Shown piece after piece: positions 8,140 through 13,972 of a DNA stretch of 32,296 bases. The position numbers were made by a program, and so were the translations under genes. The stretch is from IMG/VR virus record IMGVR_UViG_3300042541_000778, positions 1 through 32,296 of that record, one strand, 5' to 3'. This DNA is from a virus. The notes under the pieces were generated by a model that searched no databases, was not told the origin of the DNA, and saw only the letters and a program-made list of their open reading frames with translations. Numbering within the stretch: position 1 is the first letter of the stretch; the number at the start of each line of letters is the position of its first letter.

Positions 8140-9324
8140 TTAAATTACAAAAAAATCATTCCTATTTTTATACTTTGAGTAAACACCATACCTGATCGCA
8201 TCCATTAAATGGTTTTGTTTGTCAATAGGTTTATTTATAATGGTTCCATCTTTAAGCTGTTCCCAAAAATAGAATTGAAATTCATTGTGTAAATTCTTGC
8301 TTTCAAAGCTATAATAAACCTCAAATTCCTTTAGTAAACTGATTCCTGCGTTTATGGATCCGGTGCCTTTTATTGCCCCTTTTGCTAATATATCCATCTG
8401 CCTTAATTCCTCAATTGATTTTGGTTCTGCTGAATCACAATAAAATAAATCTTGATCATATCCATTGGACTTTATAAACTCTGCAATATCCCTATTTGTC
8501 ATTCCCTTTTTATAACAAACTTCATGCAGATATAACCGATCTTTAACCTTGGCTATCTGGACAATGGCTGTAGGATCCTGTGCATATCCAAAATCCAATC
8601 CATAGAATATTTCATCAAACTCTGGGAAATTATCTTTTGGAATTTGTTTCCATTTAGGAAATATCTGCCTTTCGGAAAATACTGCCCTTTTACCTTCCCC
8701 ATACACTCGCCAATAATCCGGATCCCTTTCTTTTAATCTCTCAATTTCTGCTACCAATTCAGCAGGTAAAAACTTATTATCTTGATATGTGGTGATCCAT
8801 GTTTCACAATCATCACGATCTATTACTTCATCATAAATCCAATGGATAGGATCAGATGGGTTAAAATCTATGATCATTTCATCCTCTGTTCTCATTAATA
8901 ACTGCCTGTAATCCTCGTAATCTAATTCGTTACCCTCATTGATATAGCAGATATTACGCTTTCGGCCCCTGATCTTTTGTGGTTCATCTACGGATAAAAA
9001 CTCCACTGTATGATGGCCGTATGTGTATGTGTTTTCTGATTTATTGTGATTGCCTAAAAATAAGATTCCCAGATTATCTAAAATTTCCATGAAATCCCTT
9101 TGCACTGATCCTTTGATGGCCGGCAATGTCTTGCGCACTATACTGATCACTAATGGCTTTGTGCTACTTGTTAGCTTATAGATTAGGTATTGGCATATCG
9201 CATAAGTTTTACCGGATCTGGTGCCACCTTGATGAACCTTGATTCTTGCTTTGCTATTTAATGTTTGGTAAAATTGAATATTACATTTCTGTACTACTCG
9301 TTTTCTATTTTGGCCGGTGTCCAT
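8140..9324 (-). CDS. terL: Terminase large subunit (packaging ATPase-nuclease)
   Basis: 394 residues. The ATPase half has Walker A GGTRSGKT at residues 33-40, a Walker B-like ICYINE ending at E130, and IIDFNPS at about 151-157 (coupling motif). The nuclease half has D244 in YGLDFGYAQDPTA, D297 in FYCDSAEP and D375 in HLMDAIRYG, the RNase H-like acidic triad. The pattern is that of the PBSX-like terminase family (Terminase_3 type). It pumps DNA into the prohead through the portal and cuts concatemers. It overlaps the small subunit gene by 31 bases. Confidence 0.96.
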   Translation of the reverse strand: MDTGQNRKRVVQKCNIQFYQTLNSKARIKVHQGGTRSGKTYAICQYLIYKLTSSTKPLVISIVRKTLPAIKGSVQRDFMEILDNLGILFLGNHNKSENTYTYGHHTVEFLSVDEPQKIRGRKRNICYINEGNELDYEDYRQLLMRTEDEMIIDFNPSDPIHWIYDEVIDRDDCETWITTYQDNKFLPAELVAEIERLKERDPDYWRVYGEGKRAVFSERQIFPKWKQIPKDNFPEFDEIFYGLDFGYAQDPTAIVQIAKVKDRLYLHEVCYKKGMTNRDIAEFIKSNGYDQDLFYCDSAEPKSIEELRQMDILAKGAIKGTGSINAGISLLKEFEVYYSFESKNLHNEFQFYFWEQLKDGTIINKPIDKQNHLMDAIRYGVYSKYKNRNDFFVI

Positions 9325-13883: not shown

Positions 13884-13972
13884 AAAAAAGACCATCAATT
13901 AAATCCCCCAGATCTCACCTTGGGTTCAATAATGATGGCCTTTAAGACCGTTTATAGCTATGTTGTGAGATC
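13884..13972 (-). promoter_or_regulatory. Structured leader with pseudoknot/attenuator-like pairing before the initiator
   Basis: In RNA order: segment 1 GATCTCAC (13972-13965), GGTCTT (13949-13944), segment 2 AAGGCCATCA (13942-13933), segment 3 GTGAGATC (13918-13911), segment 4 TGATGGTCTT (13897-13888) running into six U (13889-13884). Segment 1 pairs with 3 (8 bp), and 2 with 4 (10 bp, one GU). Segment 2 can pair instead with the upstream GGTCTT. Stem 2-4 plus U-run looks like a terminator only four bases before the ATG. Confidence 0.6.

Follow-up and report, generated by a model that had tools for sequence, protein, structure and literature searches.

The attenuator of plasmid pT181 sits before the gene of the plasmid's replication initiator. 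Loop-loop helices of 6-7 nt are formed by HIV-1 DIS, which has purines 5' of the kissing bases, and by ColE1 RNAI/RNAII, and among phages the C4 RNA of P1/P7 is an immunity RNA comparable to P4 CI in causing premature termination through complementary leader segments. In pT181 an antisense RNA is at work, an antiterminator sequesters the 5' arm of the terminator, and loop-loop kissing is the recognition step (PMC4878617). Replication genes of P4 are likewise held off by premature termination, in a leader with mutually complementary short segments (CI RNA, seqA-seqC) (PMC4825925), and in the case of IsrK, from the Gifsy-1 prophage, one promoter yields both a terminated short RNA and the read-through mRNA of phage control genes (PMC4825925). 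The locus studied here, in a viral DNA stretch of 32,296 nucleotides (the window, meaning the whole stretch analysed), also carries complementary segments ahead of a replication initiator gene, and we compared it with related leaders and with these systems.

Results

Anatomy of the leader

The genes flanking the leader are on the minus strand, and its elements are, in the order of transcription:

14261-13992, minus strand: 89-aa gene (phrog_13625), co-directional upstream neighbour of the leader, outside the RNA
14012-13984, minus strand: Bacteroidota-type promoter, TTG-N18-TATATTTG, with the -33 TTG at 14012-14010 and the -7 box at 13991-13984
13979, minus strand: predicted +1, five bases past the G of the -7 box, placed by published numbering (PMC6847099)
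13976-13955, minus strand: H1, the 5'-terminal hairpin, TAGC (13976-13973) pairing with GCTA (13958-13955) around a 14-nt loop that holds arm 1
13972-13965, minus strand: arm 1, GATCTCAC, in the H1 loop, kissing partner of arm 3
13942-13888, minus strand: H3, the terminator-like hairpin, with arms 2 and 4 as basal stem (RNAfold minimum free energy structure)
13942-13933, minus strand: arm 2, AAGGCCATCA, 5' side of the H3 basal stem
13924-13907, minus strand: apical part of H3, CCCA (13924-13921) pairing with TGGG (13910-13907) around a 10-nt loop, AG+GUGAGAUC
13918-13911, minus strand: arm 3, GTGAGATC, in the apical loop of H3
13897-13888, minus strand: arm 4, TGATGGTCTT, 3' side of the H3 basal stem
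13889-13884, minus strand: U run, six T in the sequence, directly 3' of H3
13880-13878, minus strand: ATG of the initiator, from the sequence
13880-13143, minus strand: HTH_36 replication initiator, first gene past the leader (Pfam HTH_36, 9e-8; PHROG replication initiation, 2.8e-16)

The original prediction had placed four arms here on the minus strand, and the sequence bears this out: arms 1 and 3 pair over a perfect 8 bp, arms 2 and 4 over 10 bp with one G.U, and six U (T run 13889-13884) follow segment 4 ahead of the ATG. The H-type pseudoknot proposed for these arms holds as far as their interleaved pairing is concerned, but not in its plain shape, as arm 1 is in a hairpin of its own and arm 3 in the H3 loop. 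According to RNAfold, arms 2 and 4 form a long hairpin (-22.6 kcal/mol) with the six U directly after it and arm 3 in its apical loop. The closing helix of H1 is weak in the window (4 bp), and when a truncated window transcript is folded the 8-bp helix between arms 1 and 3 is the main feature. The predicted shape is two hairpins kissing loop-to-loop, and not a plain H-type pseudoknot. No second copy of the arms was found elsewhere in the window, the only other occurrence of the arm 3 sequence being as the complement of arm 1.

The good promoter that had been proposed upstream is present, with the correction that it is of the Bacteroidota type, in whose consensus and numbering the G of the -7 box is at -5 (PMC6847099). 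The 3' end of the 89-aa gene (stop codon 13994-13992) lies within it, and this gene adjoins the leader in many relatives too. A start downstream of segment 1, named in advance as an argument against the structure, is not predicted, since the +1 at about 13979 lies upstream of arm 1, three bases ahead of the H1 closing helix. The proposed pairing of segment 2 with an upstream copy of GGTCTT did not hold, as this copy is not conserved (GATCTT, AATCTT, GAACTT and AGACTT in relatives).

Single-sequence statistics give no support for the arms or the promoter in this AT-rich 32-kb window. This strand of the window has five instances of the interleaved 8+10 arrangement, where shuffles have 0-7, the promoter motif is found 4 times versus 7.3 expected, and the z-score of the leader free energy is only -2.2. 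The case for the leader structure is a comparative one.

Covariation among class A relatives

Eleven leaders of the window's class, class A, were aligned and scored for a structure made of H1, the kiss, the H3 base and the H3 apex. In this set 98.7% of cells were paired, a percentage favoured by the fact that the structure was partly derived from the same sequences and the set partly found via arm complementarity, and both sides had changed in 15 of the 27 pairs. This level of covariation was reached by 0 of 500 shuffles, and pairing stayed below 49% in a control in which partners were slid by 1-3 columns. All four helices covary, each on its own: the H1 closing helix is 96% paired with both-side changes in 4/5 pairs, the kissing helix 1:3 is 100% paired across the 11 leaders with 4/8 pairs covarying, the H3 basal stem is 98% paired and shows compensating changes, and the H3 apical helix is 100% paired, with covariation in 4/4 pairs. 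The original prediction had looked to related leaders for compensating changes in both arm pairs, and these are found among the 11. Close relatives are nearly identical and thus uninformative; the distant ones carry the compensated arm pairs CUUCUCAC/GUGAGAAG, GUUCUCAC/GUGAGAAC, CUCCUUAC/GUAAGGAG, CUCACUAC/GUAGUGAG and CUCUCGAC/GUCGAGAG, the window itself having GAUCUCAC/GUGAGAUC.

Inverted repeats just upstream of an initiator gene could also act as DNA, that is, as operator or origin sites for the initiator with no RNA structure involved. A protein operator, however, would keep its sequence, while here the differences between phages are compensated at RNA-pairing positions, stem sequences are free to vary, one and the same initiator is found with swapped loops, and a U run always follows one end; we consider a DNA-level role very improbable. 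Judging from the compensated changes, the leader structure is almost certainly real.

A wider family with many loop sequences

In other phages, the same place is occupied by a mirror image (class B), where the 5' hairpin has the loop GU-N3-AG and the terminator-like hairpin the loop CU-N3-AC. The ends of these loops are constant and their centres vary, the forms seen being GUAGGAG, GUGAGAG, GUGGUAG, GUCGGAG, GUGGAAG and GUCAGAG. A pattern for one class B loop type alone matched at least 120 stretches, some of them by chance, and many matches to the GTAGGAG pattern without hairpins, being coding sequence, were dropped. A third small group (L014-L020), with AUGCGG/CCGCAU, shows the same layout by eye. 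Leaders picked by their initiator protein instead of their loop have the same architecture, with at least seven loop types.

The bias of the class A set was avoided in a test on 74 unique leaders, which were chosen by initiator protein only and whose hairpins were delimited from stems alone. In 67/74 the two loops matched perfectly over at least 7 nt, versus about 8% of mismatched pairs, and in the remaining 7/74 the loop had been delimited wrongly. A descriptor scan of 2.16 Mb returned 208 elements at a score of at least 50, versus 2 in shuffled sequence. At least four standard pair types occur at most positions of the H1 and H3 stems, in a set selected for pairing, which biases the percentages but not the diversity. 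A mixed class B alignment made with MAFFT, with only 2 invariant columns, was too poor for a covariance model, and blastn of a class B leader against named phages gave only short chance matches. In all, over 100 distinct leaders ahead of replication operons in Bacteroidota-type phages have this architecture; their loops are diverse in sequence and match perfectly in each, and cultured virulent Flavobacterium phages are among the carriers. Such a device had been called unusual for a phage; in Bacteroidota-type phages it is in fact common.

Three observations were made along the way. Two leaders on GC-richer viral contigs (L104 and L114) have a GUAGGAG/CUCCUAC kissing terminator before a Lin1244-like gene, without the TAnnTTTG box, which suggests that the element reaches phages of hosts outside the Bacteroidota. 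On contig IMGVR_UViG_3300027969_000114 (L125), of 59 kb, where phages of this type have about 31 kb, two copies of the leader lie about 31 kb apart, and the contig might be a head-to-tail dimer, a chimeric assembly or two related phages joined. In Thiomargarita nelsonii (L213, L215, L221), a short palindromic element with GGTAGGAG/ACTCCTAC ends is repeated on several contigs of one genome; this is a MITE-like element unrelated to the phage leader.

Fixed and variable positions

In most of 147 leaders a promoter is followed by an intrinsic-terminator-like hairpin and then by a co-directional gene. Of the 147, 101 have a perfect TAnnTTTG in the 20-nt bin immediately before H1, the other upstream bins holding 0-7. 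H1 begins at the predicted +1 or within a few nt of it, and H3 adjoins the U run at a fixed junction, as do the ordinary terminator-like hairpins of the same phages. Stem sequences and the middle hairpin are not fixed, and the distance from U run to ATG ranges from 6 to about 60 nt. With this distance variable and the hairpin-U run junction fixed, a translational switch, which the original prediction had offered as an alternative to attenuation, is unlikely as the general mode.

A co-directional ORF starts about 6-30 nt past the element in nearly all genuine members. Its product may be an HTH_36, Lin1244_N or DUF6291 protein, or one of others resembling methylases; the device is not tied to one initiator, and the replication operons behind it begin with any of several unrelated genes. 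In 20 near-complete contigs scanned there was one element each where detected, before the first replication gene. These positions bear on whether the element is a stand-alone small RNA gene merely placed before the replication operon. Promoter, compact RNA of about 95 nt and terminator-like hairpin would indeed make a complete transcription unit; chance packing, however, would give neither the nearby co-directional gene nor the location at the operon start, and we find this explanation improbable.

It is also conceivable that the leader protects or insulates the replication mRNA, the 5' hairpin locked to a second hairpin shielding it from decay, with H3 no working terminator and the U-rich stretch past it a landing site for the ribosome or S1. 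This would suit the position of H1 at or within a few nt of the predicted +1, an ATG that is often close to the U run, and the preference of Bacteroidota, which have no Shine-Dalgarno sites, for unstructured upstream regions (PMC6847099). On the other hand, H3 meets its U run exactly as ordinary terminator-like hairpins do, the distance to the ATG is not fixed, and matched loop diversity is not needed for protection, so that a protector is an unlikely account of the leader, if not as unlikely as a separate small RNA gene.

Loop types in cultured phages, and a search of cellular genomes

The element is found in the Flavobacterium phages tooticki9-1, morran9-1, mumin9-1, snusmum9-1 and elemoA/E, each with its own self-matched loops; the loop pairs of cultured Flavobacterium phages are GUGAGACG/CGUCUCAC, GUGAGAAG/CUUCUCAC, GUGGAACG/CGUUCCAC, UGAGAGC/GCUCUCA and GUGGAGG/CCUCCAC. 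Between tooticki and mumin the loop variants are compensated, and the rest of the leader is about 92% identical. The set to which these two belong has been described as virulent (PMC7077304). In Cellulophaga phi19:1 the kiss is present and the U run is poor. No convincing element was seen in the leaders of two Bacteroides phages, VA7 and C1_85S2P, in both of which the initiator is an internal gene of its operon. A search of 84,980 bacterial and archaeal genomes with a strict class B pattern gave 11 matches, one of them convincing. A second conserved hairpin-like stretch, GGTAATCTTTAAACC, lies between the terminator-like hairpin and the ATG in tooticki-type and Cellulophaga phi19:1 leaders (L405, 780-1000; L413, 401-446), with about 85% identity over 46 nt between genera.

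A tree of 59 initiators requires 22 or more changes of loop type, and initiators that are nearly identical differ in their loops and even in their class. Loop types turning over faster than initiators suggests, but does not show, a specificity function between phages; the turnover is consistent with specificity cassettes being exchanged, or with mere recombination plus compensatory drift. Two elements were found at each of three loci, and their loops differed in every case (L112, ends at 8295 and 10254, minus strand; L219, 2935 and 4779; L141, 608 and 3077), and these look as if cross-talk were avoided.

From such data one could propose a self-specific RNA control, in which the short terminated leader, or the leader of another copy, swaps kissing partners with leaders of its own loop type as these are being transcribed. 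Leader dosage would then limit or license replication, and co-infecting phages would be excluded or tolerated by loop type, much like an incompatibility group. As the window has no further copy of the arms, no phage RNA other than the leader itself could be the partner, and the variable centres with constant ends of class B loops, the loop changes on the initiator tree, the compensated loop differences between phages of the same host, and the different loops of the two-element genomes would all agree with it. Against it, the intramolecular kiss should beat a kiss in trans, compensatory drift and cassette recombination could yield equal diversity, just three two-element genomes were seen, and, as the tooticki/mumin carriers are virulent (PMC7077304), lysogenic immunity is not the purpose there. 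We regard this control as a tentative possibility, the least doubtful of the alternatives considered; being a special case of attenuation, it overlaps in its likelihood with the reading we prefer. Slightly more doubtful still is an exchangeable loop code, in which the H1 loop would address the terminator as a self-matched replication gate for each phage, and co-infecting virulent phages would recognise or ignore each other by loop type.

Discussion

The reading that best explains our results, with a probability of roughly 0.6, is promoter-proximal attenuation of transcription of the phage replication operon, by a leader in which the terminator docks on the 5' hairpin. RNA polymerase would start at about 13979 and make H1 at once; arm 3, on emerging, would pair with the H1 loop over 8 bp, and once the second half of H3 has emerged, H3 and the six U would act as a stop signal immediately ahead of the initiator's ATG. 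How likely termination is would be set by H1 docking on H3, which may favour or hinder it, so that the fraction of polymerases that pass would determine the expression of the replication genes, the rest leaving a compact RNA of about 95 nt. Comparison of the leaders shows H1, H3 and the kissing helix as predicted structures, and fixed promoter and U run positions; that H3 terminates and that the kiss changes the outcome we infer from this arrangement. Of the attenuator originally proposed, the structured leader, its own promoter and the terminator-like hairpin with U run before the initiator all stand, whereas the mutually exclusive logic built on GGTCTT does not; control of initiator dosage is possible. 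The strong hairpin and U-rich stretch before the AUG could, in addition, affect mRNA stability or translation.

What would trigger such an attenuator can be narrowed down. With many loop types that are always self-matched, a fixed host RNA is not the partner of the loop, and the anti-Shine-Dalgarno sequence is rejected together with any other such RNA by the varying loop centres. Three candidates are left, namely a protein recognising the shape of the folded leader, the kinetics by themselves, or a second leader RNA with a loop of the same type. Pairing of the 5' arm of H3 with upstream RNA is lower in class B leaders than in their shuffled versions (0.31 vs 0.50), and thus no classical antiterminator is seen. 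Antisense-RNA copy control of the pT181, ColE1 or R1 type was rejected for want of an antisense promoter across 147 leaders: antisense TAnnTTTG is at background level within 200 nt downstream, and the full -33/-7 promoter is on the antisense strand in 2/147 leaders versus 62/147 in sense.

Several class A leaders have an open frame of about 20 codons (MPS..EVRS..WWLF) running through H3 into the initiator start. An amino-acid leader-peptide attenuator was rejected because this frame is not conserved, the window and two other leaders (L007, L232) being without its ATG. Lysogenic immunity is unlikely, given the single convincing class B match in 84,980 genomes and the virulence of the tooticki/mumin carriers (PMC7077304). 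An H-type pseudoknot riboswitch such as preQ1 or SAM-II was rejected as well, with no match in Rfam and, in a class B alignment with only 2 invariant columns, no conserved ligand core.

Rfam 15 contains no family that matches the window or 13 loci, permissive scans giving only sub-threshold, chance-like matches, and we found no description of such a leader in the open PMC papers searched, although unnamed entries in large lists of candidate RNAs are possible. By its sequence and predicted fold, the leader looks like a new, apparently undescribed family of structured RNA before phage replication genes. Its position is where genome replication is controlled in a group of phages about which little is understood, and what defines it is a loop code that is very simple and can be rewritten. 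Should the kiss control termination, this would be a new principle of attenuation, one without a competing antiterminator, and if the loops act between phages, there would be an RNA-based incompatibility among virulent phages.

Among known systems, the leader would appear to work most like the attenuators in leaders of plasmid initiators such as pT181, the premature termination of the P4 type, or IsrK, while failing their defining features where tested. It shares with pT181 a terminator or terminator-like hairpin before a replication initiator and the use of loop-loop kissing, but has neither the antisense promoter nor the sequestration of a terminator arm. With P4 CI and P1/P7 C4 it shares mutually complementary short segments in the leader of phage replication genes; the complements of P4, however, act through a processed trans RNA in lysogeny, whereas here they are hairpin loops and the carriers include virulent phages, and the phage leader matches no Rfam family, C4 included. 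IsrK, unlike the phage leader, acts on translation of its own read-through mRNA, and we have seen no kissing-loop terminator described for it. Finally, the kiss is intermolecular in HIV-1 DIS and ColE1, whereas that of the phage leader is predicted to form within one RNA, as in pT181 it does not, and to include the terminator-like hairpin's own loop.
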